A program made the position numbers and the translations under genes. Shown here piece by piece: positions 10,536-25,015 of a DNA stretch of 38,714 bases. Every line of letters begins with the position of its first letter. The first letter of the stretch is position 1. The stretch comes from Candidatus Poseidoniaceae archaeon (GTDB taxonomy: Archaea > Thermoplasmatota > Poseidoniia > Poseidoniales > Poseidoniaceae): assembly GCA_949538025.1 (NCBI GenBank), contig CATISI010000210.1:1-38714 (forward strand), written 5' to 3'. Under the pieces are notes generated by a model. That model was not told where the DNA came from. It ran no database searches and worked only from the letters and a program-made list of their open reading frames with translations.

Positions 10536-11666
10536 ATGGTCCTTCCCTTTCGTCGAAAAGACAAGGGTGAGAAGGTGACTGCGAACGATGAAGACGAGGA
10601 CATCAATGCCCTTCTCAGTGCAGAATCGTTCGAGAACACACAACCAACGGAGCGCCTTCCGGAACCAACGACTGATGAAGAACGGCTGCATGCCATCTCA
10701 GACATGGTTATTCAAACATGCATGGACATTCGTCGTGGAGAAAACGTCCTCATCGTCTGTGACCCGACGACAGCTGAAATCGGTCAGTCGTTGCACATTG
10801 CAACACAGAAACGCTCCGATCGAGTTCTCCTTATCGTCATGCCGAAATCTCGCCACCATGGAGAAGAACCACCATCGCCTGTAGCATCATTGATGCGGCA
10901 ACAACAGGTCGTTATCGCAGCGACCAAGTATTCGCTTACCCACACGAGAGCTGCACGTCAAGCATTGAAAGATGGTGCTCGAATTGCTACAATGCCAGGC
11001 ATGACCTTTGAATTGTATACAGAAGGTGGGATGACAGCGGATTTCCAAGATGTCAAGCGCCGAATTTCCAACATTGCCAACTTCCTAAGGCGACGACGAA
11101 TCATCAACGTCAAATCTGAATCTGGAACTGATGTTACCTTTGAAGTAAATTGGCGTGATTGGAAACTCGATGATAATGGGATATGCAATCGTCCACGAAT
11201 GTTGACAAATCTTCCTGCTGGGAAGGTGTTCATTCTACCAAAAGAAGGAACCATGAATGGAACCATCGTTATCGATGGTTCTTGGGATTCGACACTGATT
11301 GATGAGCCTGTGGAGTTCATCGTGGAAGATGGAACCGTTGTCGATGTCAAAGGTGGAACCCTTGCTGCAACGATTCGTCAATCGTACGGCGAAGTTGCGA
11401 AGAAGCTCAAAGCAAAAGACCGGGAAAGTGTCTGGACAGTGGCCGAATTCGGGTTTGGAATGAATCCAAGTGCTCGACTTGTAGGAAACGTTCTCGAAGA
11501 TGAGAAGCGTATGGGTAGTTGCTACTTCTCGATTGGAGACAACACTGGCCTTGGTGGAACTTCAAATGCGGGGATTCACATTTCTGGCGTCCTCGCAAAA
11601 CCAAGCGTTTGGTTGGACGACTCGTGTTTGACCGAAAGTGGTGAATTCATCGCTGATCAGAATTAA
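10536..11666 (+). CDS. M29-like aminopeptidase (thermophilic metalloprotease family)
   Basis: This 376-residue protein resembles archaeal leucyl aminopeptidases of the M29/PF02073 group. A linker-like charged N-terminus comes first, then an alpha/beta domain (RRGENVLIVCDPTTAEIGQS, about 65-85). The C-terminal metal-binding region contains AEFGFGMNPSARLVGNVLEDEK and GSCYFSIGDNTGLGG, as in family members where Glu and His residues bind two metals. Several canonical histidines near the end are less obvious here (GIHISGV is present). The frame stays open upstream to 10284 but would then overlap the M32 gene; ATG 10536 starts just before the first conserved part. Its stop codon overlaps the stop of the convergent EF-hand gene by two bases. 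Confidence 0.78.
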   Translation: MVLPFRRKDKGEKVTANDEDEDINALLSAESFENTQPTERLPEPTTDEERLHAISDMVIQTCMDIRRGENVLIVCDPTTAEIGQSLHIATQKRSDRVLLIVMPKSRHHGEEPPSPVASLMRQQQVVIAATKYSLTHTRAARQALKDGARIATMPGMTFELYTEGGMTADFQDVKRRISNIANFLRRRRIINVKSESGTDVTFEVNWRDWKLDDNGICNRPRMLTNLPAGKVFILPKEGTMNGTIVIDGSWDSTLIDEPVEFIVEDGTVVDVKGGTLAATIRQSYGEVAKKLKAKDRESVWTVAEFGFGMNPSARLVGNVLEDEKRMGSCYFSIGDNTGLGGTSNAGIHISGVLAKPSVWLDDSCLTESGEFIADQN

Positions 11667-13180
11667 CGATGTGCACTCATGTTCATGTTCCCACAAATTG
11701 GACAGAAGCGCCAATTCGGGTCGAGACCAATCCCACATCCACGACAGTGAATTCCTGAACGAATCGTTGGTTGGATGTTCATGGCCGGTTGTTGAGGCAT
11801 CATTGGTTGTTGCATTGGTTGACGCATCGGTTGCTGTTGAGGAAGCGGTTGTTGCCAACCCATTTGTGGGGCAGCAACGCCCGGGGAGGTTGGTTGTTGC
11901 CGAACAGGTTGTTGTTGTGTAGGTTGCTGTTGTGCAGGCTGCTGAGACTGAATCGGTCTGCGAACTGGAGCAACTGGGCGGGGAAGTGATGACATCTTTT
12001 GAGCGGCTTCAGATGATACGAATTCGGAAAGAGAAACTTCTCCATCGCCGTCTGTATCTGCTGCAGTGTGCAACTCTTCGGCTTCCTCGATGGTGACGTT
12101 CGCCGCAACTGCGAGTTCTTCGACTGAGAGACTACCCGAATCATCAACATCTGCAGCGATGAAGCGTTCAGCATCGCTGACCCATTCCTCTTCTACTTGT
12201 TCTTCAGCAACGGGTTCAGGTTCGCTCACAACAGGTTCAAAGGGTTCAGGAAGGACTTCTTCAGCGGGTTCTGAAACAACTTCTGGCTCTGGTACAAGTT
12301 GGGAGCCGAATGCACCTGCAAAGGCATCCCGTGCTGCATGATCAACCTCGACTTCGTTCTTGAATCCTGTTTCCTCAAGTGGTTCCTCTTGGCTTGGAAG
12401 TGGGACGGAGTCGACAGCTGGAAGAGGTACGGACTCCGTTGGCAGAGGCACTGATTCAACCTCAGGTTCCGGGGCCGCAACCGCTGGTGTTGGTACAGAT
12501 TCTGAATCGGTTTGAGGTTCTGGTTCAACTGGAGCAGGTTCAGGTTCTCTTCGCTCGATGATTGTGCCCATCTCGATTTCAGCAGGTTGTGCCTGTTCGC
12601 CTGCAAAGAGCGGCATTGGGAGTGCATGTCCTGCAACATCGAGTGAAGATTTGAGTTCTTCAGCCATCGTCTGCATCTTCTCCAGATTGTCTGAAGGCGC
12701 TGCCATGATGGATTCGATTGATTGCAAGTATCGTTCGACCTCTACGTTTCCACCCGTTGCATAGGCAATGGCTAGGATTTTTAGGAACTGCATTGGGTCA
12801 AACAAAGGCGTGAGTGTTTGGAGAACATCCCCTGTAGCGAGAGGATGTGCTGTATTCGCTGCACCTGTCGAATCGGGTTGACCAGCAAATTGGAGCAAGG
12901 GGTCAGGAAGTGTCATAAGATTCAGATGTCCAAAAATCAAGAAGTAAATCTCACCGCCCTCACACTGCAACCGTTCGCTTGCAGCTTCAAAATCAAATTC
13001 GCCTGGACGAAGAATGATGTCAGCCAAATGCTCAAGTGCCTTTGATAACGCCTGTTTCGAATCCATCGACATCATTTGTTGAAGGACATCTGACGAATCG
13101 ACAACACCGAAGTAAGCCGCTGCATCATCTACCTCGATACCATCAGGAAGAGTTGCTCCTTCAGGTACACCTTCCGACAT
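11663..13180 (-). CDS. Cytosolic EF-hand, Gln/Pro-rich, zinc-ribbon protein
   Basis: This 505-residue protein has no recognised family and no signal peptide or membrane helix. An N-terminal helical domain (about 1-190) is followed by a Pro/Glu/Val-rich linker (about 205-335). A pair of EF-hand loops follows: DVDDSGSLSVEE at about 344-355 and DTDGDGEVSLSE at about 375-386. A Gln/Pro/Met-rich stretch (about 410-470) leads to a C-terminal zinc ribbon with CxxC pairs C479/C482 and C493/C496. The start ATG 13180 is chosen because AGGAGGAA lies just upstream; an in-frame ATG at 13204 precedes that site. The gene lies 57 bases downstream of the giant surface-protein gene on the same strand. The pair is plausibly cotranscribed, so this may be its intracellular calcium-responsive partner (inference). 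Confidence 0.8.
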   Translation of the reverse strand: MSEGVPEGATLPDGIEVDDAAAYFGVVDSSDVLQQMMSMDSKQALSKALEHLADIILRPGEFDFEAASERLQCEGGEIYFLIFGHLNLMTLPDPLLQFAGQPDSTGAANTAHPLATGDVLQTLTPLFDPMQFLKILAIAYATGGNVEVERYLQSIESIMAAPSDNLEKMQTMAEELKSSLDVAGHALPMPLFAGEQAQPAEIEMGTIIERREPEPAPVEPEPQTDSESVPTPAVAAPEPEVESVPLPTESVPLPAVDSVPLPSQEEPLEETGFKNEVEVDHAARDAFAGAFGSQLVPEPEVVSEPAEEVLPEPFEPVVSEPEPVAEEQVEEEWVSDAERFIAADVDDSGSLSVEELAVAANVTIEEAEELHTAADTDGDGEVSLSEFVSSEAAQKMSSLPRPVAPVRRPIQSQQPAQQQPTQQQPVRQQPTSPGVAAPQMGWQQPLPQQQPMRQPMQQPMMPQQPAMNIQPTIRSGIHCRGCGIGLDPNWRFCPICGNMNMSAHR

Positions 13181-13237: not shown

Positions 13238-16200
13238 CTATTGTTGGTTTCGAGCCATATCGTAGATGGCTCTGGATTGTTGAGCGGACCAACCTGTGCC
13301 TTGAAGTTGCATCAAGAGGGTGCGCTCTTGCTCACCCTCACCGAGTTCACCGACCACCCATTCAACAGCAGCATCACGATCGTCTGCTTGCCATTCTTCG
13401 AAAAGAGACATGTCAACTTCAATTCGTGCACGTCGAACCTTCTTTTGTGGGCCTGTAGCCTCACTTGGTTCGGCTTCATCTGCCTTGGAAACAGGCGTTC
13501 TGCGAGCAGGTTTGGATGCAGGAGCGGGTTGTGTCTTTCCAGGCGATCCTCGACCGGGTGGACCGGACGATGGGGCTCGTGACCCTCCTGGTGGGCCTCG
13601 CTTGGGCCCAGATGGGCCTCTCGATGGAGGTGGGCCTCCAGAAGGACCTCCGGTAGAAGGTTGACTTTGAGGTGCAGGCGTCGAGCGGCTTGGCATCGGT
13701 TTGCTTTGGAACGAGGAGAAGAAATCGTCGTCATCGTCGTCATCATCGAAGAAATCGTCGTCATCGTCGTCATCATCAAAGTCATAACCACGGTTTCGAA
13801 GTCGCACAATCATCATAGTCAGGAGAAGTAAGACTACAATTCCACCAAGAATGCCACCAATGAACACAATTCCACCAAGAGCGCCATCGAAGACAGGAAT
13901 GATCCCAAGAAGATTGTTATCTCCATCGTCGGTTTTTGAAGCTGGCAGTGGACAACCATCTTCGTAGCCATCAGGTCCTTTCGGTTGTTCTGGACAATTG
14001 TCAAGCAAATCGCTGATCCCATCCTGATCGGTGTCTCGCTCACTCTTTGAGCAGCCTTCATCATCGACGTTTGTTGTTGGAGAATCTGGACACTTATCGG
14101 GTGTTGATGCGCCTTCAACGAAAATACCAGGCCATTCCGAATCTCTTGAAGCGTTCCAAGTGGGATCGCCCCAGTTGTCACCATATCCATCTCCGTCAGA
14201 ATCATTCCATTGTGTGGCGTCACCTGGGAATTTGTCGCGGCCAAATTCATCTGCCCAACCATCACCATCGTCAAGGCATCCAATCTCGAGAACATCGAGA
14301 GACGAAGAACCATTCACAGTAGGACAGAAGTCTGATTGGTTTGCACCTGGAACATACGTTCCTGCAAAACGTGGATTGATTGAGGAATTCATGGATACAT
14401 CAGGATAATTGTCTCCAAAACCATCTCCATCAATATCTGACCACTGAGTCTCATCCAATGGAAACGCATCGCCTTGTTGGTTAATTCTCAATCCTGTTTC
14501 CGGGTCGATATCGAAAGTGTATGCTCCAAAGTATCCATCCCCATCGATGTCCAGTTCCAGCAATCCTTCAACAAAACAACCCCTCGGAGTTACTGGTAGC
14601 CCCGGCTCAGTGTCTGGACATCCGTCGTTGTTGTTGGTGACTCCATCACCGTCATCATCCAACTGATTCGGAGCGCAACCGTTGGAATCAATGTTTCCTG
14701 GATTAACGATCCAAAAGATGTCCGTATCAGGACAGAGATCAACTGAGTTGTTTACTCCATCGTCATCGGAATCAAATGCATTTTGTAGTTCAGAGCATCC
14801 GTTTTCGTCTACTACGAAATTGATTTGAGTGTCTGGGCACAAATCATCTCCGTTGCTGACTCCATCTGAGTCATCATCAATTTGAAATTCTGAGCAACCA
14901 TTCCCATCAACAGTTTCGAACACCGGAGTTTCTGGACACAAATCTATGCCATCAAAAACGCCGTCTCCGTCCTCATCATCAGCACTCACAAGTGGACAAC
15001 CTTTGCCGTCTGTTCCGTCTTCAACACCAAACTGGAACGGACATTCATCAGCGTTGTTGCCTGTGGAATTATCACCAAATCCATCTCCATCGTAATCGAG
15101 GAATTGTGTCGGATCGAGTGGAAAATCATCATCTGTATTAGCCCAACCATCGTTATCACTGTCAGGACAGCCGGGAGTTGGGTTCATCGATGTTCCATAC
15201 ACGCCGGGACAACCATCGAGGACAAGTCCTTGGCCATTGGTTCCATTGTACGAAGAAGTCCAACGGTCAGGATAACCATCGCTATCGTTGTCGTCAGCTG
15301 CAGCAATGTTGTACGGGAAGAAATCAGGATTGGTTGCGCCGATGGTTCCGTTGTCTCCGTACCCGTCACCGTCCGTATCGGCCCACTGAGTTGGGTCATC
15401 TGGCCACTTGTCAGCGCCTTGGTCAATACCCCAATTGATTCCGCCGATGTTGTTTGCGTCACTCGCTCCATCGCCATCTGAATCAGGACAACCGTTGCGA
15501 TCACGGTAGGATGTTCCGTAGTCCCATGGACAATAGTCACCAGTTAACGTATCGGACTCGTTGTCACCGTATCCATCACCATCGAAGTCCTTGTATTGCC
15601 TTGGATTGTAAGGGAATTTATCACCTGGACTGGTTTCAACAGCACCAGATGGACCAAAGATAGCATCACAACAGTCAACACCGTAGTTGTCACCGATACC
15701 GTCTCCATCTGTATCTTTTGCTTGCTTCCAATTCTGTTGGAAACGGTCCCCATTCACCCAGGTGCCATCGTTGTTCGACCAGCCGTCCTCGTCGTAATCT
15801 GGACATCCGAATCGGTCATAGACAGAACGGCCTTTGTTGGTGTCGCACGAGTCGATGTCGTCTGCGAAGCCGTCTTGCTCATAGTCATCACATCCTTGCA
15901 AGAAGAAGTACGATATTCCTGAAGCAGCAGGACAATCGTCGGATAGTGGGCCTGTTGGGTTATCACCAAATCCATCCATGTCAGCATCTTCCCATTGTTC
16001 CCCAAGGTTCGGCATTGCATCAATGCGATCGAAGACGAGGTCACGGTCAGCATCTGCATAGAGTCGCAACATTTCGACATCCAGATCGAGCGTATCATAG
16101 TAACCGATTACGATTGTGCCGTTCGAATCAACAGAACTGGAGAAGTTGGTGTTTGTGAACACATTCTTCATTTCGTGCGAAGACCAAATGGAACGGTCCT

Positions 16201-19200
16201 CGCTTCGTCCATCCAGATGAAGGGTGTTGATGCGCAATGTGTTCGTTGTTGGCGTTGTTGTCATCAGTAGGACACCTGGTCCATTCGATACGAGACTCCA
16301 TGCCCCGCCAGCCTGTGAAAACAGTTGGCCACCGAAAGAGGACCAATGACCACTGCTGTTTCGTTCATACAAGGAATCCGTTGCGGATTGAACTGCAAAG
16401 ATGAGGGAAGAGCCATGCTGCGTACAGGAAAGATCGTTCCCAGTTGAGTGGCTGAGTTGTTGCATGGAAACGTTGGACCATGCCTCGGTTGTCGCATTTC
16501 GCTCGTGCACAACCAAAACACCGTTCGAGTCGAGTGAGAGAAGGGCAACGGTATGGTTTGTATCGATGCACATAGCCAATTGTGATGCTCCATCACTGAA
16601 GTTCGTGAGTGAAGTTGAAACATCGTTATCGATGTCAAGAATCTGCAGTTCGTGAACACCCGAGTTGTTGACGGTTGTTGCGACCAGTGTAGGGCCCGAT
16701 GGGACCTGCAGTGTAACGTGCTCGACACCCACTGCATCTCCACTCTCAAGTTCTGTGGCTGTTGACCACGTGCTTCCTGACTTGGTCACTCGCTCGAGTC
16801 GGTCAAGGTTCGAATCACGGTAAAGGATGTGCATGTCAGCGCCATCGAACCACAAGGATGGTGAAGACGAAAGGTTTGCGTTCGAGAAAATCTCACTGTG
16901 AGACCATCCCGATTCGGCCTCTGTGGAATAGTACATTTTCTCGATGGTTGGGTGAGAATACACCATGTGTAAATCACCATTGGCATCAATGGTAGATGCA
17001 GGATAGGTACCAAAGTCGTTGAATGTACGAACCTCTTGATGCAAGGAGGTCCACGATGTGGTCGTGTGATGTGTGTATCCAATCGCATTGTCGAGAACGA
17101 CCAATTTGGGTTGCCCAGAAGCAGAAACATCGAACTGGAATTGGAATGGCAAAGAATCTGTGGCTAATGTCTCCGTGACCCACGAGCCACCCGGAGAACC
17201 GTCATCGACATGCTCAAGATGAATCAAGGAATGAGATGATGAAGCATTGAGGGAGAACATCATGGCAGTCTCACCACGGTTTGATGTGGTCAGTTTGAGT
17301 CCTGACATTTTACCTTGGAACGTGAATTGGCTCGTATCGAAATCCTGCTTGCTCGCAGTGATCATGTCCACGCCATAGTCCGTGCCTCGAGTTGCATTTC
17401 GCGTCGAATACACGAATTCAATTGCACCGTCTGCATTCGAATCAAAGCCTCCTAGCGTAACAAGTCCAAGGTGATCGGTCGGACTTCCCGTTCGTATGGT
17501 TTCAACAGCTGTTGCAAAACCATCTGCTGACCCAAGATACAGATTGATTTGACCGGATGGGGTGAAACTTGTCCCTGAACCAATGAACGTGTCGGCATAA
17601 CCATCGTCGTTCACATCACCAGCAGGAGCAAACATCCAACCGAAGCGCTCGTTGCCCTCGCCTTGACTGGTCCAGTCAGGGATTTCGGAGAAGTTCTCCG
17701 AAGTGTTGCCCATGAACATGTGGACTGTACCGCTGTACAAAGGGGCTCCAGTTGGAGAGAATTCTTGAACAAGCAATTCATCCATTCCATCGTTGTTGAT
17801 GTCATCGATAATTTCAACAACCGTTCCAAACAATTGTCCTGAAGCCAAGCGTTGAATGCTTTTATCGGAACTTGATGAGAGTCCATCAACTGACCCATAA
17901 AACACCTCGATGGCTGAGAAGCCAACCGGCGAGTCTTCGGTTCCTGAATTTGAAACGACAACATCGCCGTAACCATCACCATTGAGGTCACCTCCGCTTG
18001 ACATCGAACGTCCAAAGAACGGGCCTGAGGTATTTGCAGTAATGTTGTGCGACAACGACAGTCCATCCGAGGAACCTTCAAACACAGACAATCGCCCTGT
18101 TGAGGTCTCGTCGCTCCAGTTGCCTTGGAGTGCGATGACATCATCATAGCCGTCACCATTGAGGTCATCAAGGAGAGAAACATCTGTGCCAAGCATTTCT
18201 TCGTGGTTTCCAGTTGTATTCCAAACAAGGTCAAACTGTGTTTGATTCCACTCATACATCGAGACACGCCCATGGTTCTGTTCACCAATTCTGCTTGTAT
18301 TATCAAAACCGGGCGATGAGAGGACAAGCTGTGTCATTCCATTTCCGAGGAACGACCCGATTACGATAGCGCTACCAAACAATTCAGATGTCTGGATGCC
18401 GCTCAGTACAACAGGTGCTGAGGAATCAAAACTTTCGTCTCCACCAAAGAGGACGGTAACACGACCGTTGTTGACCAAGCCACTGTCGGATGCAGTCGGC
18501 TGGGTAAATACGACATCATCGAATCCATCTTCGTTGAAATCGCCATATCCTGCAGCACCCTCTTTGACATCCGGATAGAGTTGATGGACATTCATGGATT
18601 CGCTCGAAAGTCGTCCAGTGGACTGGTCTTCGAGACTTTTGAAAATCGATAGTCCAGTTTGCGTGGAATCGAACGATGTCGTCGCAACTTGAGCAAGCCC
18701 GTTTAAATCGAGATCAAGCCCAATCGCTGAATGGACGCTGGAATCTCGAGCGAGAATCTGTTCCGTGCGTAGGTCTCCATCCACTTGCAGACGAACGGCT
18801 TCACCTGAACGAGTGTAAGCGATGTTTGCGACGCCATTTTGATCCATCTTCAATTCAATTTCATCACCAACTGGGCCAATGTCAAGAAGACTGTGATACC
18901 AACGCAATCCACTGTTGTTGACTTGCCATAATTCTCCAGAAGAGGTTCGAACAACGGCGAATTCATTGCCGTCTTCAGTGAGTCGAAGCGTCATTGATTC
19001 AGGGAATAGGTCTTCTACAATGGTCCGCTTAAGCCACGTATCCGTTGTGTAGACTTGTCCCTGAAAGGCCATACGAGCCATCTTGAGGTTGGCCCCGTCT
19101 CCAAACAAAGCCAATGGGCGGTAGGATTCATCGGCAACAACAGAACACCCAATGAGCCCGTGTGTGGTACTAACCGTATCGATGAGTGAATGTGAAAAAA

Positions 19201-19588
19201 CGCCTGCGGCCGTGTGGATGCCCATACGTACTTCACCGAGGTCATTCATCCAGCAGAGGTAACTCGAACCGTTTTCTGCTAGGTAGACGCTAGGTGTACT
19301 CAAGTTGCTCATCGTTCCTTCAACGAGAACGTCGCTCATCCACATATCGATGGATGAATCCGAGCGAACCAACAATTCGGACATACCTTCCACATCGATG
19401 GTTTGACCAGCAAGATTGTGCCCGTGCTCGAGGTTGCTTGGAAGTGTCAAATCGACAAGGTTCATTTCGTATAGAACTGCCTCTTCAGTCGCCGTTTGGA
19501 TACCGAGTGGAGCCATCAATTGGACCAACAGAAGTAGGACGAGTCCAAACGAAAGGACCGATTTACAAAGCGTCCGCTCCCTGCGCAT
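13238..19588 (-). CDS. Giant membrane-anchored surface protein: FG-GAP and thrombospondin-3-like repeats, poly-Asp cytoplasmic tail
   Basis: This 2116-residue protein has an N-terminal signal peptide (about 1-33, hydrophobic core SFGLVLLLLVQLMAPLG). FG-GAP/integrin-like repeats with calcium loops (for example DFNEDGFDDV) fill about 340-735. A second propeller-like beta-rich region covers about 740-1170. Aspartate-rich thrombospondin type 3-like repeats span about 1180-1870. A membrane helix follows at about 1900-1928. The cytoplasmic side carries basic residues, two D8FF units (about 1937-1956), a Pro/Gly/Ser-rich linker (about 1960-2040) and a C-terminal helical domain (about 2045-2116). The layout implies a calcium-stiffened stalk with a propeller head outside and a signalling or anchoring tail inside. 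The family resembles large Marine Group II surface proteins; the ligand is unknown. A TATA-like box and a palindrome precede the start. Confidence 0.88.
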   Translation of the reverse strand: MRRERTLCKSVLSFGLVLLLLVQLMAPLGIQTATEEAVLYEMNLVDLTLPSNLEHGHNLAGQTIDVEGMSELLVRSDSSIDMWMSDVLVEGTMSNLSTPSVYLAENGSSYLCWMNDLGEVRMGIHTAAGVFSHSLIDTVSTTHGLIGCSVVADESYRPLALFGDGANLKMARMAFQGQVYTTDTWLKRTIVEDLFPESMTLRLTEDGNEFAVVRTSSGELWQVNNSGLRWYHSLLDIGPVGDEIELKMDQNGVANIAYTRSGEAVRLQVDGDLRTEQILARDSSVHSAIGLDLDLNGLAQVATTSFDSTQTGLSIFKSLEDQSTGRLSSESMNVHQLYPDVKEGAAGYGDFNEDGFDDVVFTQPTASDSGLVNNGRVTVLFGGDESFDSSAPVVLSGIQTSELFGSAIVIGSFLGNGMTQLVLSSPGFDNTSRIGEQNHGRVSMYEWNQTQFDLVWNTTGNHEEMLGTDVSLLDDLNGDGYDDVIALQGNWSDETSTGRLSVFEGSSDGLSLSHNITANTSGPFFGRSMSSGGDLNGDGYGDVVVSNSGTEDSPVGFSAIEVFYGSVDGLSSSSDKSIQRLASGQLFGTVVEIIDDINNDGMDELLVQEFSPTGAPLYSGTVHMFMGNTSENFSEIPDWTSQGEGNERFGWMFAPAGDVNDDGYADTFIGSGTSFTPSGQINLYLGSADGFATAVETIRTGSPTDHLGLVTLGGFDSNADGAIEFVYSTRNATRGTDYGVDMITASKQDFDTSQFTFQGKMSGLKLTTSNRGETAMMFSLNASSSHSLIHLEHVDDGSPGGSWVTETLATDSLPFQFQFDVSASGQPKLVVLDNAIGYTHHTTTSWTSLHQEVRTFNDFGTYPASTIDANGDLHMVYSHPTIEKMYYSTEAESGWSHSEIFSNANLSSSPSLWFDGADMHILYRDSNLDRLERVTKSGSTWSTATELESGDAVGVEHVTLQVPSGPTLVATTVNNSGVHELQILDIDNDVSTSLTNFSDGASQLAMCIDTNHTVALLSLDSNGVLVVHERNATTEAWSNVSMQQLSHSTGNDLSCTQHGSSLIFAVQSATDSLYERNSSGHWSSFGGQLFSQAGGAWSLVSNGPGVLLMTTTPTTNTLRINTLHLDGRSEDRSIWSSHEMKNVFTNTNFSSSVDSNGTIVIGYYDTLDLDVEMLRLYADADRDLVFDRIDAMPNLGEQWEDADMDGFGDNPTGPLSDDCPAASGISYFFLQGCDDYEQDGFADDIDSCDTNKGRSVYDRFGCPDYDEDGWSNNDGTWVNGDRFQQNWKQAKDTDGDGIGDNYGVDCCDAIFGPSGAVETSPGDKFPYNPRQYKDFDGDGYGDNESDTLTGDYCPWDYGTSYRDRNGCPDSDGDGASDANNIGGINWGIDQGADKWPDDPTQWADTDGDGYGDNGTIGATNPDFFPYNIAAADDNDSDGYPDRWTSSYNGTNGQGLVLDGCPGVYGTSMNPTPGCPDSDNDGWANTDDDFPLDPTQFLDYDGDGFGDNSTGNNADECPFQFGVEDGTDGKGCPLVSADDEDGDGVFDGIDLCPETPVFETVDGNGCSEFQIDDDSDGVSNGDDLCPDTQINFVVDENGCSELQNAFDSDDDGVNNSVDLCPDTDIFWIVNPGNIDSNGCAPNQLDDDGDGVTNNNDGCPDTEPGLPVTPRGCFVEGLLELDIDGDGYFGAYTFDIDPETGLRINQQGDAFPLDETQWSDIDGDGFGDNYPDVSMNSSINPRFAGTYVPGANQSDFCPTVNGSSSLDVLEIGCLDDGDGWADEFGRDKFPGDATQWNDSDGDGYGDNWGDPTWNASRDSEWPGIFVEGASTPDKCPDSPTTNVDDEGCSKSERDTDQDGISDLLDNCPEQPKGPDGYEDGCPLPASKTDDGDNNLLGIIPVFDGALGGIVFIGGILGGIVVLLLLTMMIVRLRNRGYDFDDDDDDDDFFDDDDDDDDFFSSFQSKPMPSRSTPAPQSQPSTGGPSGGPPPSRGPSGPKRGPPGGSRAPSSGPPGRGSPGKTQPAPASKPARRTPVSKADEAEPSEATGPQKKVRRARIEVDMSLFEEWQADDRDAAVEWVVGELGEGEQERTLLMQLQGTGWSAQQSRAIYDMARNQQ
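13718..13777 (-). repeat. Two perfect 30-base tandem repeats encoding D8FF twice
   Basis: Positions 13718-13747 and 13748-13777 are identical 30-base units on the plus strand. Read on the minus strand each encodes eight aspartates and two phenylalanines, directly inside the membrane helix of the giant surface protein. Exact identity, including synonymous GAT/GAC choice, points to recent duplication by slippage or unequal crossover. Confidence 0.9.
13975..16045 (-). repeat. Thrombospondin-3-like calcium-binding repeat region
   Basis: About 690 codons of the giant protein consist of repeats built on DxDGDGxGDN. At least six copies of a longer module of the form DxFPxDPTQWxDxDGDGYGDN occur, mixed with classical CPDT...DxDxDGVxN units. 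Copies are diverged in DNA sequence, so they are old and not a simple tandem array. Cysteines recur once or twice per unit, as in thrombospondin type 3 repeats, where they form disulfides. Confidence 0.85.
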
Positions 19589-19696: not shown

Positions 19697-20320
19697 ATGT
19701 CGAAGGTGCTCATCGTTGCAAATGGTGAATGGCCAAAGCAAATTGATGTTGCACATCGTGCTGAAACTTATCGAGTGGTCATCGCACTCGACGGTGCTGC
19801 AAACCGATTAATCGAAAGTAACACGACTCCGGATGTCCTTTTGGGCGATCTTGACAGCGTTTCTGAATCGGTTCTTCAGCATTGCAAGGTATGTGGCGTT
19901 ACCATCGTGCATACACCTGACCAACAGAGCAGTGATATCTCCAAAGGATTGGAATGGGTTCAGAGAACATATCCAGATTCGGAAGTTGATATCATTGGCG
20001 TTGAAATTGGACGCTATGACCATCACCTTGCTGCTTACTCGGCTTTGTTTGAGTGCAACAGTGATGCAAGGATTCTTCTCGATGGTTGGCATGCTCACCG
20101 AGTCTCGCAAACGCCAACCAAGATCGAGACGAAGCCAAGTTCGGTCATCAGTTTGATCCCGTTTGGAGAAGTTACTGGCACGACCATCACAGGTTGCCAG
20201 TTTTCGCTCGATTATGAAACGTTGACCACTGGAACAAGAGGTATCTCCAACATAGCCACTGGACCCTCAATCACCGTTTCGGTAGAATCAGGAGATTTGC
20301 TACTGCTCATCATGAGGTGA
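19697..20320 (+). CDS. Thiamine pyrophosphokinase
   Basis: This 207-residue protein matches thiamine pyrophosphokinase, which converts thiamine to the cofactor thiamine diphosphate using ATP. Motifs are DGAANRL (32-38), GDLDS (50-54), TPDQ (73-76) followed by D80 and K83 (SSDISKGLEW), and GRYDHH (about 109-114). The C-terminal half has the beta-strand-rich thiamine-binding pattern. The length is typical. AGGAG at 19688-19692, 4 bases before the ATG, supports this start. It is the only plus-strand gene between 11667 and 28532, inserted between the two calcium-repeat surface-protein loci. Its 3' end overlaps the DUF4105 gene by 21 bases (convergent). Confidence 0.93.
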   Translation: MSKVLIVANGEWPKQIDVAHRAETYRVVIALDGAANRLIESNTTPDVLLGDLDSVSESVLQHCKVCGVTIVHTPDQQSSDISKGLEWVQRTYPDSEVDIIGVEIGRYDHHLAAYSALFECNSDARILLDGWHAHRVSQTPTKIETKPSSVISLIPFGEVTGTTITGCQFSLDYETLTTGTRGISNIATGPSITVSVESGDLLLLIMR

Positions 20321-21175
20321 TGGCGGTAATGCGCCTCGAATGAAGGCACTGTAATCGCTTTCACCATCCCAATCTTGGGCATATCGGTCGATTCTTGCTT
20401 TCTCCATCGTCGCCTCTAGTCCGCCCCAATCCTCGATCAGGTTCAATTTCAACGCAGCCTTGGGTGTGTATCCTGGCAGGAAATTGCGCCAAAGAAACGG
20501 AATACGGCCAGGAGTAACAGCGTTCACGGCATTGACGATGGATGTGTTGCACGTCTTGAACAGAGTATGATAGAATTCAGGCCGTGTTGCAAGCTGATTC
20601 AATCGATGCGTCATTTGAACGATCATCTGTCGTTCCTTATCGGGTGGTGTAATGACACGATACATTGAGACTATGTTGTTGCGTCCATGCGTTCGGAGTT
20701 GGGTCACATCGCGTTCAAAGCCAACGAGGAGATAGAGTTCATACGAGCGCCATAATCCAGTCCATGGATGGTACCTCTTGCCACGCTCACGTCGAGTTTC
20801 AAACGAGAAAGAAAGACAGGTCCCATCGAAGAATTCGAACGTCAGATAAGTATGCGACATACCTCGAAAGGCGTGGAATTGGTCAACAACGAACCATATG
20901 TGCTTGACCTTGGTTGAATCAACCGTGACTTCATCAGCCCACTTTTCATCTCGATCTCTCGTCGTTCGCCAATGAAAGTCACGAACGTTTCGGAACGTGA
21001 TCATCGAATCGTTGAATACTGCACTGGTTGTATATTCACAATCTGCGGCCCAGTCTGCATGCAACTTGGGTTGTCGAGGGCGAACACGCGTCCACCAAAT
21101 CCGAACGCCGTTGAGGATGAGCAGTCCAATGAAAGCGCCCAAACCAAGGAGAAGATACTGTAGCCAGTCTGCCAT
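20300..21175 (-). CDS. DUF4105 / Lnb-like membrane-anchored protein
   Basis: This 291-residue protein starts at ATG 21175, five bases after the stop of the preceding gene. An N-terminal membrane helix (about 4-28) leads to a domain that resembles DUF4105 (PF13387, Lnb N-terminal periplasmic domain). Recognised stretches are SHTYLTFEFFDG with H108, FETRRERGKRY, LWRSYELYLLVGFERDVTQLRT, RPEFYHTLFKTCNTS with C209, and LPGYTPK. Conserved His and Cys resemble a papain/NlpC-like catalytic pair. The Bacteroides relative Lnb N-acylates lipoproteins; carrying that activity to an archaeon is inference. It is the last gene of a six-gene minus-strand run that includes two secreted proteins. Confidence 0.78.
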   Translation of the reverse strand: MADWLQYLLLGLGAFIGLLILNGVRIWWTRVRPRQPKLHADWAADCEYTTSAVFNDSMITFRNVRDFHWRTTRDRDEKWADEVTVDSTKVKHIWFVVDQFHAFRGMSHTYLTFEFFDGTCLSFSFETRRERGKRYHPWTGLWRSYELYLLVGFERDVTQLRTHGRNNIVSMYRVITPPDKERQMIVQMTHRLNQLATRPEFYHTLFKTCNTSIVNAVNAVTPGRIPFLWRNFLPGYTPKAALKLNLIEDWGGLEATMEKARIDRYAQDWDGESDYSAFIRGALPPSPHDEQ

Positions 21176-21179
21176 CGTT

Positions 21180-22466
21180 TCACCAACGTTGCCAAATGTT
21201 GTAGGCTGAATCCCACCAATCGAGTGAACCGTCTGGATGTTTTCTCCAGAGTTGACCCTCATCGTCGAGGACGGTCGGCAAGCCTTGAGGATCTGGAGAG
21301 CCATCGTTGAGGATTTGAGGCGCTGGGCCAAGTTCAGGCAAGGTCAGCAACTCATCGTCTTCTCGTATTCGAACAAGCAGGACAAATACGACGATTGCAA
21401 CAATGAAACCGAGAACTGCAATCGTATACCAACCAACTTCCTCGGTTGGTGTTTCATCCCCGAACGATTGGCTCGGCAGAGCTTCCTGCTCTTGTGGAGT
21501 AAGTTCAGCAGCTGGGAGACGAACGATGTTCACGGCTTGGGTGCTGGCGATGTTCTCTAGGTTGGTCACTTTGAGAACCACAAGATGGACGCCTGCTGGA
21601 AGTGCCGAGCAATCGTACACTGGTCCATTAGTCATCGCCGATGCTGTCGAGACGTCCCATTCCTTGGTGTAAGGCGTGAAATCCTCGTTGGAATTTGTTG
21701 GTTGTACGGCAATCAGACACGATCGGTCCGTGGATAAACCGTCACCGGTGACCACGAGTTCAAAAGTAGGTGCAGGTCGATTTTCAATCGTTAGATTCAA
21801 CGACGCTTCAGCCGTTTGACCAAGTTCGTTACGATAGGTTTCACGAAGTGAGTACTGGCCTGCTGGCCAAGAAGAGCAATCGATGCTTGTTGCATTATCG
21901 AGTACAATGAACGGTGCACCGGTGAAGGTTAGGGTCCCAAATGCACCGTATCGCGGCCCTGTTTCATCCATAAACAACCGGTTGATTTCACAATTCGAAC
22001 CCGTTTGCAAATTGCTCTGGCCAGTGAACTGGAGAGAAATCATCGGCGTCTGGAGAGCAGGGACCATCTCGTAACTCGGCAGAGATATTGTTGATATCTC
22101 AACGCCGTTCATATCGTAAAACCCGAGAGCAAGGTCATGAGAACCTCGTGACCAAGCATCGTAGGTAAGACTCACATTCGACTGACCAACAATCTCGATG
22201 GTTGTTGATTCAACGACTTCTCTATCGTTGTGTGTAGCGATAAGACGAACGTCAACAATGGTCGATTCAGTCGTTGAGTTGAGGATAACAACAACCCGTA
22301 CAGCATCGATGTCACCATCTTGGTTCAAATCAAGTGTATCGTTGCGAAGTGCAACCATTGTAATTCCCGCCTCCTCAAGCCCAAGGTCCGCTTCTGCACT
22401 GACCTGCCCAACACTGAGCATAGGTACAACAAACAGCAGAACCAAGACCATGGCTATCCTACGCAT
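21180..22466 (-). CDS. Membrane-anchored extracellular protein with two Ig-like modules and cytoplasmic LPEL/WW-rich tail
   Basis: This 428-residue protein of unknown function starts at ATG 22466, preceded by GGAGGTG. It has a signal peptide (about 1-24). A beta-rich domain begins with an aspartate-rich calcium-like loop (DLNQDGDIDAVRV). Two similar modules follow, each with a cysteine pair and the phrase DCSxxPAGxxxL. The C-terminal membrane helix lies at about 345-367. The 61-residue inner tail carries LPELGPAP and ends in a Trp-rich stretch (LWRKHPDGSLDWWD). It overlaps the upstream calcium-repeat gene by 8 bases, so the two are translationally linked and probably act together at the cell surface. 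Confidence 0.78.
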   Translation of the reverse strand: MRRIAMVLVLLFVVPMLSVGQVSAEADLGLEEAGITMVALRNDTLDLNQDGDIDAVRVVVILNSTTESTIVDVRLIATHNDREVVESTTIEIVGQSNVSLTYDAWSRGSHDLALGFYDMNGVEISTISLPSYEMVPALQTPMISLQFTGQSNLQTGSNCEINRLFMDETGPRYGAFGTLTFTGAPFIVLDNATSIDCSSWPAGQYSLRETYRNELGQTAEASLNLTIENRPAPTFELVVTGDGLSTDRSCLIAVQPTNSNEDFTPYTKEWDVSTASAMTNGPVYDCSALPAGVHLVVLKVTNLENIASTQAVNIVRLPAAELTPQEQEALPSQSFGDETPTEEVGWYTIAVLGFIVAIVVFVLLVRIREDDELLTLPELGPAPQILNDGSPDPQGLPTVLDDEGQLWRKHPDGSLDWWDSAYNIWQRW

Positions 22467-24993
22467 CGTTTTCACCTCCTGGCGGAGGAGGGAGTGGTAT
22501 TGCCAGTTCAGGTAATGCCATCTCAGTAGAATTGGACGATGCAAGAGGTTCAGACGTATCATGCAATGCAAGAAGATCTTCTGTCAAGGTTTTCTCGTCT
22601 TCAGAACGCATCGTTCGAACAACAAGTGCTGCCGATGCTCCGAGAATGAACGAAACACCGACGATGAGATAGGTCAACCACGATGCTGCAGGGTCCTCAC
22701 CCATGATGGCAAGAGCAGCATTCCATTCTCCGTACTCGTTCGACCAACCATCGCCGTTGTTGTCCTCGCAACCTTGTACGTCTCGCGTCGACGTTCCAAA
22801 CACTTCAGGACAGTCATCTCGTAGAGCACCGAGGGGTACATCACCAAATCCATCACCATCGCTGTCTTTCCATTGCAGGGCTTCTGTCGGGAATGCGTCC
22901 GCTGAACCATACGGATGAGCATCCCATCCATCGGTTGGGTCAGACCAACCATCACCATCTGTATCTCGGCAACCCAATCGATCGAGGATCGAAGTTCCGC
23001 GGATGCTTGGACATGCATCTGCCTCATTTCCATCGACTTCGTCACCGTAGCCATCACCGTCTGTATCTCGCCATTGTGTTGGTTCGTGAATGAACGCATC
23101 ACCCAGATTCGACCAACCGTCACCATCTGTATCAGGGCAACCCCAGCGGTCGCCTCCTGAACTTGGACCAACAGATGTTCCAGGTTGGGATGGACAAACA
23201 TCAGCGGTAGTGCCTGATGGGTTGTCCCCTCGGCCATCACCATCACGGTCATGCCATTGAGTTGTATCCTCTGGCCAAGCATCCGCTGTACCACCCGGAC
23301 TGGCGAGCCAGTACGGTGTGGGGTCTGACCAACCATCTTCATCAAAATCTGGGCAGCCCCATCGGTCAAATGTCGATAGCCCAAAGGTGGTCTTGCATCC
23401 ATCACCACGGTAGGCAAGGCGCCATGCTTGACCATCGAAATATTCCATGTTATCTCCAAACCCGTCATTGTCGGTATCGTGCCATTGTGAAGCATCGTTC
23501 TGGAAGGCATCAGCAAACCCTTGCGGGTGCGCAATCCAATCATCGGTTGGATCGGAATATCCATCCTTGTCGACATCTCGACAACCGAGTCTGTCGAAAC
23601 GTGATATCCAGCCACTTTCAACTTCCTCAGCGTTGGAGTTCATACAGACATCGCCTTCAAAACCAGTAAGATTGTCACCATATCCGTCACCGTCAGTATC
23701 TCGATACTGGCTCGGTATCATCGGGAAATCATCGATTTGTGTGGCTCCATAGGTTTGATTATCGCCCCAACCATCAAAATCAGTATCTCGAAATTGGGTC
23801 GGGTTATCTGGGAAATCATCGATAAGATTGGCACCTTCTGATTGGTTGTCACCGTACCCATCAAAGTCACGATCACGCCATTGCGTTGGCTCGAGTGGGA
23901 ACGCATCGGCACCATCGGCTGCGGTCCAGTTCTCACTGGGGTCGGACCATGCATCCCCGTCCGCATCAGGGCAACCGTATCGATCGGCGAAAGAGATACC
24001 AAGGATGAACGGGCATGCATCGGGTTGGTGCGCCGTTTCAAGCCATTGGCCGATTCCCCACTCCAAGTGGGTTTGGTTCCACATAGGATCGTCCCAGTTG
24101 TCGCCGTAACCGTCTCCATCTGTATCTTGCCACTGTGTTACCTCAAGCGGGAACGCATCAGCTAAACCATTTGGGTGCGCATACCATGGTTCAAGCCCAT
24201 TAAGTCCGCCGGGGTCTGCATCGGAATAGGAATCTCCGTCAGAATCTATGCAACCATATCGGTCAGAAGTTGAATATCCACGGTTGTCTGGACAGTGGTC
24301 TGGTTGGTTACCGAGAATGTTATCGCCGTAACCATCGAAATCACGATCACGCCATTGTGTTGCATCGTTTTCGAAAGCATCCGCACCGTTCTGTACGTCC
24401 CATCCTGCGTCGGTATCAGACCAACCGTCTGAATCGGTATCGATGCAGCCCTGTCGGTCGTTTGTTGACGTACCGACGATTAAATCACATTCATCATCAG
24501 AGTCAACAAAGCCATCCTCATCGGTGTCTCGGTCGGTCTTGTCTATGGAGGCGAGAAGCGTGTAATCAAAGCCGTCGTTGCACCAAGAATCTTTTCCTTT
24601 GATTTTGACGTAGACGTACCCTGCTTGTGACATGGTCTTCGACAACGTTCCAGATGGGTTGTCGTCGCTTCGTCCCATGGTTGCAACTTGAGAACCTGAT
24701 TCATCGTGCATCGAGTAATCACCTTCCCAACCATCGCCAGGACACCACCAAGCTGCGTTGCTCATTGAACCTGAAAAGGCGATACTAACGATGTCTCCTT
24801 TGTATGCATAGATACGCCACCAATCCGTTCCATCGTTGGGCGAGCACCCATCTGGATCGCACACATAACCGTTGGACGAAACGCCATCGGTGAGCAAATT
24901 TGAGGAGGCCTGTGTATCATCGGCATGAACCGATGGCACCATGGAAAGCACCATGAGAGCAAACATGCCAATAGCGATGCTACGCCCGAGCAT
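22459..24993 (-). CDS. Secreted calcium-repeat protein with single C-terminal membrane anchor
   Basis: This protein of about 844 residues (GTG 25008 would add five) has a signal peptide ending near VHADD. An N-terminal domain (about 30-145), rich in Cys, Trp and Gly, recalls pre-peptidase C-terminal type beta domains. About 600 residues of aspartate-rich repeats follow. Nine TQW-type units (such as EPTQWRDRDFDGYGDN) alternate with eight Cys-type units (such as RYGCPDADGDAWSD). A membrane helix lies at about 770-795, and a 49-residue cytoplasmic tail contains ALPELAIPLPPPP. The repeat style is shared with the giant protein. It is probably a calcium-stabilised surface stalk. It lies 22 bases downstream of the TIGR01777-type gene on the same strand. 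Confidence 0.82.
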   Translation of the reverse strand: MLGRSIAIGMFALMVLSMVPSVHADDTQASSNLLTDGVSSNGYVCDPDGCSPNDGTDWWRIYAYKGDIVSIAFSGSMSNAAWWCPGDGWEGDYSMHDESGSQVATMGRSDDNPSGTLSKTMSQAGYVYVKIKGKDSWCNDGFDYTLLASIDKTDRDTDEDGFVDSDDECDLIVGTSTNDRQGCIDTDSDGWSDTDAGWDVQNGADAFENDATQWRDRDFDGYGDNILGNQPDHCPDNRGYSTSDRYGCIDSDGDSYSDADPGGLNGLEPWYAHPNGLADAFPLEVTQWQDTDGDGYGDNWDDPMWNQTHLEWGIGQWLETAHQPDACPFILGISFADRYGCPDADGDAWSDPSENWTAADGADAFPLEPTQWRDRDFDGYGDNQSEGANLIDDFPDNPTQFRDTDFDGWGDNQTYGATQIDDFPMIPSQYRDTDGDGYGDNLTGFEGDVCMNSNAEEVESGWISRFDRLGCRDVDKDGYSDPTDDWIAHPQGFADAFQNDASQWHDTDNDGFGDNMEYFDGQAWRLAYRGDGCKTTFGLSTFDRWGCPDFDEDGWSDPTPYWLASPGGTADAWPEDTTQWHDRDGDGRGDNPSGTTADVCPSQPGTSVGPSSGGDRWGCPDTDGDGWSNLGDAFIHEPTQWRDTDGDGYGDEVDGNEADACPSIRGTSILDRLGCRDTDGDGWSDPTDGWDAHPYGSADAFPTEALQWKDSDGDGFGDVPLGALRDDCPEVFGTSTRDVQGCEDNNGDGWSNEYGEWNAALAIMGEDPAASWLTYLIVGVSFILGASAALVVRTMRSEDEKTLTEDLLALHDTSEPLASSNSTEMALPELAIPLPPPPGGENDA
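22473..22479 (-). promoter_or_regulatory. Strong Shine-Dalgarno site inside the end of the upstream gene
   Basis: Minus-strand GGAGGTG sits 6 bases before ATG 22466, within the last codons of the calcium-repeat gene that ends at 22459. It fixes the start of the Ig-like protein and suggests translational coupling. Confidence 0.75.
22725..24540 (-). repeat. Alternating TQW-type and Cys-type aspartate-rich repeats
   Basis: Nine copies of a module ending in QWxDxDGDGYGDN and eight copies of RxGCxDxDGDGWSD alternate with a period of roughly 60-75 residues. DNA copies are diverged, so the array is long established. Each Asp-rich loop resembles the calcium loops of thrombospondin type 3 repeats. 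Confidence 0.85.
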
Positions 24994-25015
24994 GTTTGGC
25001 CATAACACATGCGGG

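Follow-up and report, generated by a model that had tools for sequence, protein, structure and literature searches.

A giant surface protein of Poseidoniales archaea with an integrin-type propeller, a TSP3-like stalk and a conserved, portable C-terminal domain

A 38,714-nt stretch of DNA (the window; contig CATISI010000210.1 of assembly GCA_949538025.1) from the 1.88 Mb metagenome-assembled genome of a Candidatus Poseidoniaceae archaeon encodes a giant surface protein, which we favour, on balance, as a single-pass cell-surface adhesin or receptor with a cytoplasmic tail docked to an inner protein or scaffold. In such an arrangement three propellers, the middle one integrin-alpha-like, would form a distal binding head carried by a calcium-stiffened TSP3-like stalk, and a membrane helix would act as the anchor. 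The cytoplasmic tail, made of an acidic and aromatic block, a Pro/Gly/Arg linker and a three-helix-bundle module, would dock the protein to an inner protein or scaffold, and through this attachment the giant would be kept in position, gathered into clusters or held mechanically. An EF-hand/zinc-ribbon protein encoded next to the giant would be the best, though not an exclusive, candidate for one inner partner. In ocean surface waters, Marine Group II archaea are reported to outnumber all other planktonic archaea, and they have no cultured representatives (PMC6461757). Their particle attachment and surface organisation are largely unknown; the giant presents a single-copy outside-to-inside design, brings with it a new family of cytoplasmic domains and points to a concrete candidate for an inner partner, all of which is open to tests on recombinant fragments even though the organism is not in culture. 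Within the literature covered, a search found no published description of a Marine Group II giant of such architecture, and the new elements here are a giant conserved as an orthologous unit, its tail domain, the portability of that domain and the linked neighbour.

The open reading frame (ORF) of the giant occupies exactly positions 13238-19588 of the minus strand, on which all of its parts described below lie, and runs from an ATG at 19588 through 2116 codons to a stop; relatives carry orthologues as uninterrupted ORFs of ~2080-2150 aa. A predicted signal peptide (residues about 1-33, 19490-19588; MRRERTLCKSVLSFGLVLLLLVQLMAPLGIQTA) with a hydrophobic segment at 12-30 opens the chain. It is followed by an N-terminal beta-propeller at residues about 63-333 (18590-19402), which belongs to no Pfam family and was modelled as all-beta by AlphaFold2 (AF2) at a predicted local distance difference test score (pLDDT) of about 90. 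Residues about 334-735 (17384-18589) form an integrin-type FG-GAP propeller, with Pfam matches to FG-GAP_3 (3.4e-8) and FG-GAP (1e-6), both over the cut-off. When a profile of 17 orthologous heads was run against the PDB, it matched integrin alpha-5 at 7e-27; the DxDxDG-type residues of this propeller are invariant in 17 sequences, and Foldseek placed it on integrin alpha-5 (9dia_A) with a template modelling (TM) score by target of 0.68. The third propeller-like domain, residues about 736-1180 (16049-17383), was again modelled as all-beta. For the whole head the AF2 model, built on a 17-sequence alignment, was nearly all beta (mean pLDDT 83.7), and its longest Foldseek alignments were to the three-propeller proteins DDB1, SF3B3 and CPSF160, at low TM-scores. 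Judged by predicted secondary structure and Foldseek matches rather than by full superposition, the head is composed of three propeller-like domains. An earlier, sequence-only reading had given the same chain from signal peptide and FG-GAP repeats through stalk, helix, two D8FF units and Pro/Gly linker to C-terminal domain, and this order stands on sequence and prediction, with three propellers in place of its two.

The stalk, residues about 1191-1885 (13934-16018), is 695 aa long and 19% Asp, with 26 Cys and 17 Dx[DN]x[DN]G loops, and NCBIfam MtsC matched it weakly (22.5 bits, cut-off 350). FG-GAP and TSP3 domains are frequent in prokaryotic surface proteins. The earlier proposal of an integrin-type propeller and a thrombospondin-like stalk in one chain is borne out by the Pfam FG-GAP matches, the alpha-5 profile match and the calcium-type loops. 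When the gene was compared with that of a near relative (G006, L039), nucleotide identity was mostly 83-94% and dropped to 58-76% at residues about 1500-1830 (about 14100-15100 of the window); a second pair, G013/G014, showed reduced-identity stretches in both the stalk and the FG-GAP region. The identity profile, taken as it is and not as a formal recombination test, suggests that stalk segments may have been exchanged between close relatives. Such a mosaic stalk bears on whether the giant could be an envelope structural protein, a spacer, a fibre or a subunit of an S-layer-like lattice, with the tail as a passive anchor. The calcium-type repeats and the narrow length range across genera (~2000-2250 aa) would suit that role, but a stalk that varies among close relatives, while fitting for a spacer, does not agree with the precise contacts of a lattice, the head contains an integrin-type propeller, and a passive anchor has no need of a conserved folded domain; we regard it as very doubtful. 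Thrombospondin genes, for their part, are reported to be widespread in Poseidoniales and have been tied to adhesion (PMC6461757).

Hydropathy identifies one membrane helix, at residues about 1902-1928 (13805-13885), which is kept in every orthologue whose 3' part is present. A basic stop-transfer sequence, RLRNRG, and two acidic D8FF units follow at residues 1929-1957 (13718-13804); a degenerate D8FF pattern has 2 matches where 0 are expected. Relatives do not have the exact D8FF and retain an acidic block, of net charge -6 to -22, in which FF, W or FY occurs. Next comes a Pro/Gly/Ser/Arg linker, residues 1958-2047 (13448-13717), which is net positive here and in orthologues, where ~60-130 aa precede the C-terminal domain. 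In nearly all orthologues the helix has 0-1 Lys/Arg ahead of it and 2-4 behind it, and N-glycosylation sequons occur at 1.76 per 100 aa in the ectodomain and not at all in the tail. From this charge bias and sequon distribution the ~185-aa tail is most likely cytoplasmic, as had been claimed from the sequence. With 185-190 residues, including a folded domain, behind the helix, it does not have the form of a short sorting tag of the PGF-CTERM or MYXO-CTERM type. Pfam matches of the tail to DUF6724 and TFIIF_alpha lay below the cut-off and were judged composition effects.

The C-terminal domain, residues 2048-2116 (13241-13447), begins with QKKVRRAR and bears the motif LQ.xGW..xQS[RK]..I. Its 69 aa are predicted to fold as a three-helix bundle (AF2 pLDDT 90.8), with nine positions invariant in 20 sequences (F16, L45, L48, Q49, G52, W53, Q57, S58 and I61, domain numbering). 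No known adaptor family or fold could be assigned: there was no credible Pfam match, PDB sequence matches had E>=0.7 and Foldseek gave no match at E<1. Within a genus the domain is 77-94% identical and ranks among the most conserved parts of the giant. Of nine pairs compared, five gave a ratio of nonsynonymous to synonymous substitution rates of at most ~0.07 and the noisy remainder reached 0.46, which suggests that the domain is usually under purifying selection.

A profile search of the kind proposed in the sequence-only reading found the domain in 102 of the 195 genomes sampled from the class, two of these matches being marginal, and in a sample of 194 genomes from the phylum it was confined to the order Poseidoniales. 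It occurs once in the source genome, and most genomes have one protein each that carries it. A GTDB-wide pattern scan returned 151 relatives of the tail domain, of which the 80 listed bear titles that agree with Poseidoniales or with unspecified Euryarchaeota/Thermoplasmatota, bar one contig. That contig (L069), deposited as 'uncultured Rhodobiaceae bacterium', equals G006:C37 of the source's genus in length (24281 bases), has a near-identical match, appears to be that very contig and looks mislabelled. With presence set at E<1e-15, the head was found in 100 of the 195 class genomes, and in 94 of them together with the tail domain. The remaining six were considered as natural head-without-tail variants and rejected, all being incomplete in assembly: in G017, G091, G150, G193 and G205 the gene runs off a contig end, and in G131 the frame is broken beside unresolved bases. 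Among the 100 head genomes there is no complete head-bearing gene without the tail domain, and the close relatives lacking a tail that would have spoken against the earlier interpretation did not appear. The giant is single-copy and near-universal in one family. A link to the archaellum was rejected on mismatched presence of the giant and archaellin (PF01917), with genus g17 having the giant and no archaellin, and g14 and g21 having archaellin and no giant.

The next gene on the same strand, at 11663-13180, encodes the candidate partner, for which neither a signal peptide nor a membrane helix was predicted and which is expected to be cytosolic. Its N-terminal domain, without a family or structure match, is followed by an acidic Pro/Glu linker, an EF-hand pair (12017-12169, minus strand; Pfam EF-hand_7 6e-7, EF-hand_5 1.7e-7), a Gln/Pro linker and a C-terminal zinc ribbon (11690-11752, minus strand), to which Pfam DZR and Zn_Ribbon_1 matched sub-threshold and whose CxGC...CPxCG pattern recurs in orthologues. 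An identity with XopAW was rejected, as the NCBIfam match covers the EF-hand region alone (30 bits against 120). The partner occurs in 101 of the 195 class genomes: 97 genomes have tail and partner, 5 the tail only, 4 the partner only and 89 neither. In all 97 that have both, the partner shares the giant's strand and lies directly downstream of its tail; counted from where the tail match stops to where the partner match begins, the median gap is 83 bases.

The sequence-only reading had offered transmembrane sensing or attachment to an inner partner. For attachment this invariably adjoining gene now supplies a candidate; for sensing no positive evidence came to light. A signalling receptor would relay ligand binding or the calcium state of head and stalk through helix and tail to the EF-hand/zinc-ribbon protein and so alter an internal activity. 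A predicted cytosolic neighbour that has a C-terminal zinc ribbon, carries EF-hands in most genomes examined and always stands beside the giant is compatible with such a relay, as is a tail in which a flexible linker leads to a domain of its own. However, neither the giant nor its neighbour has a signalling enzyme domain in Pfam or NCBIfam (for the giant, no match to a HisKA, HAMP or MCP-type cytoplasmic domain was found), the partner of G051 has no EF-hands although the giant is present, and the C-terminal module also sits on proteins of quite another kind, described next. Signalling is on these grounds unlikely.

These other carriers belong to genus g12 of family f2, in three genomes of which the module is present while neither the head nor the partner was detected. 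One host there is a subtilase that carries CARDB and NEW3 domains, the other a TSP3/hydrolase-like protein; in both the module stands close behind the membrane helix. Since it is found on other surface proteins, the module is portable, and the g12 arrangement indicates that its use is independent of the acidic block, the long linker and the giant's partner. That surface enzymes carry it too favours docking or positioning over signalling specific to a ligand, and a conserved, portable inner domain suggests that these cells have an inner module dedicated to the docking of surface proteins. The same portability could be taken to mean that the module marks surface proteins for sorting, folding or processing, as a cytoplasmic counterpart of C-terminal sorting tags rather than a domain for docking or signalling, given that it is small, strictly C-terminal and swapped among unrelated ectodomains, and that other surface proteins of the source genome bear other short C-terminal modules. 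A tag of that kind is nevertheless distinctly unlikely when most genomes have one carrier protein each, when the main host is always the same giant, and when, unlike in simple tags, a folded bundle stands behind a long linker.

Several observations weigh against the favoured reading of the giant as a docked adhesin or receptor. The giant and the partner are not an obligatory pair: g12 has the module without a detectable partner, and in genus g4 the giant has been cleanly lost between a thiamin pyrophosphokinase gene and the partner, which stays. Fisher's test for co-occurrence of tail and partner gave 2e-43, but linked genes and common descent inflate this value, which is no measure of the probability of an interaction. 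The partner role, proposed from gene linkage, is putative, as are ligand, inner target and interaction. In the AF2 model of the head the relative placement of the propellers is uncertain (predicted TM-score 0.68). The stalk scored 22.0 bits against Pfam TSP_3, whose cut-off is 25, and 'TSP3-like' is therefore the fitting term for it.

The locus around the giant is itself largely kept in both families, as a syntenic block of an 849-aa TSP3-like protein, a 463-aa protein, an Lnb_N protein, the thiamin pyrophosphokinase, the giant, the partner and an M29-like peptidase. Its upstream part, at 20300-25008, holds the Lnb_N-domain protein, the 463-aa protein with a Trp-rich tail and the 849-aa TSP3-like membrane protein, and is conserved with the giant in both families. 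The four partners seen in genus g4 have no EF-hand match and keep the zinc-ribbon cysteines. The idea that these partners evolved faster once the giant had gone was considered and rejected, root-to-tip distances being no larger and the EF-hands alone missing.

The giant's long tail had been thought exceptional among archaeal surface giants, most of which were said to end at or just after the anchor. This did not hold in the source genome, where a survey of proteins similar to the stalk or to a Trp-rich module showed that further surface proteins of the TSP3 type, where their 3' end is intact, have 37-185 aa beyond the helix, several of them finishing in the Trp-rich module. Many single-helix surface proteins of this genome close with that Trp-rich C-terminal module of ~34 aa (DGxxW...DG..WYYR......WxxW), among them the protein at 21180-22571 (C-terminus 21183-21275) and proteins on L149, L151, L152, L155 and L161; its profile has six strong and several weaker copies and no Pfam family. 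One carrier, a 3083-aa surface protein (L149:2344-11592, plus strand), has a tail that starts much like the giant's, with a helix, WDDDFDDEDE and GPSGPAP repeats, and ends in the Trp-rich module. A second tail type, LPxGWTMxQWxxYGxxYL or SQGYTPEQATMYTKQYF, was seen on TSP3 surface proteins of L157, L158 and L154. Tentatively, exchangeable Poseidoniales tail modules (GW..QS three-helix, Trp-rich and GWTxxQW) might fix enzymes and very large proteins of the surface to a scaffold inside the cell that includes the EF-hand/zinc-ribbon protein, an outside-in linkage that would follow the logic of integrin adhesion with unrelated inner parts.

Set beside known systems, the giant shares with other Poseidoniales TSP3 surface proteins a signal peptide, a TSP3-like stalk, a membrane helix and a short cytoplasmic module; those proteins differ in having terminal modules of their own, Trp-rich or of the GWTxxQW type, and mostly shorter tails. 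With thrombospondin and prokaryotic TSP3-repeat adhesins such as MtsC it has in common a stalk of calcium-type DxDxDG repeats, to which it adds a propeller head, a membrane helix and a cytoplasmic domain; its stalk, moreover, falls short of the Pfam TSP_3 cut-off. No Pfam match to the C-terminal lectin-like domain of secreted thrombospondin was found in the giant, in which the stalk is followed by membrane helix and tail. Like an integrin alpha subunit, the giant has an integrin-type calcium-loop FG-GAP propeller, with alpha-5 as the top profile match, and a large ectodomain, a single membrane helix and a cytoplasmic tail. It differs from that subunit in its two extra propellers, in a far longer tail with a folded domain and in a TSP3-like stalk that replaces thigh and calf: no Pfam match to thigh or calf domains was found after the propeller, where the third propeller and the TSP3-like repeats stand instead. 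Nor does it have the KxGFFxR motif, the post-helix sequence being RLRNRGYDF(D)8FF, and the integrin resemblance is one of the fold of a single domain only. No beta subunit is known for it, though no search aimed at a homologue of one was made. Integrin-type propellers also occur in bacterial proteins, whose function and cellular location are given as unknown (PMC3192720); the giant is likewise a prokaryotic protein with such a propeller and differs from these in that it is anchored in the membrane, has a cytoplasmic domain and is linked to a gene for a cytosolic protein.

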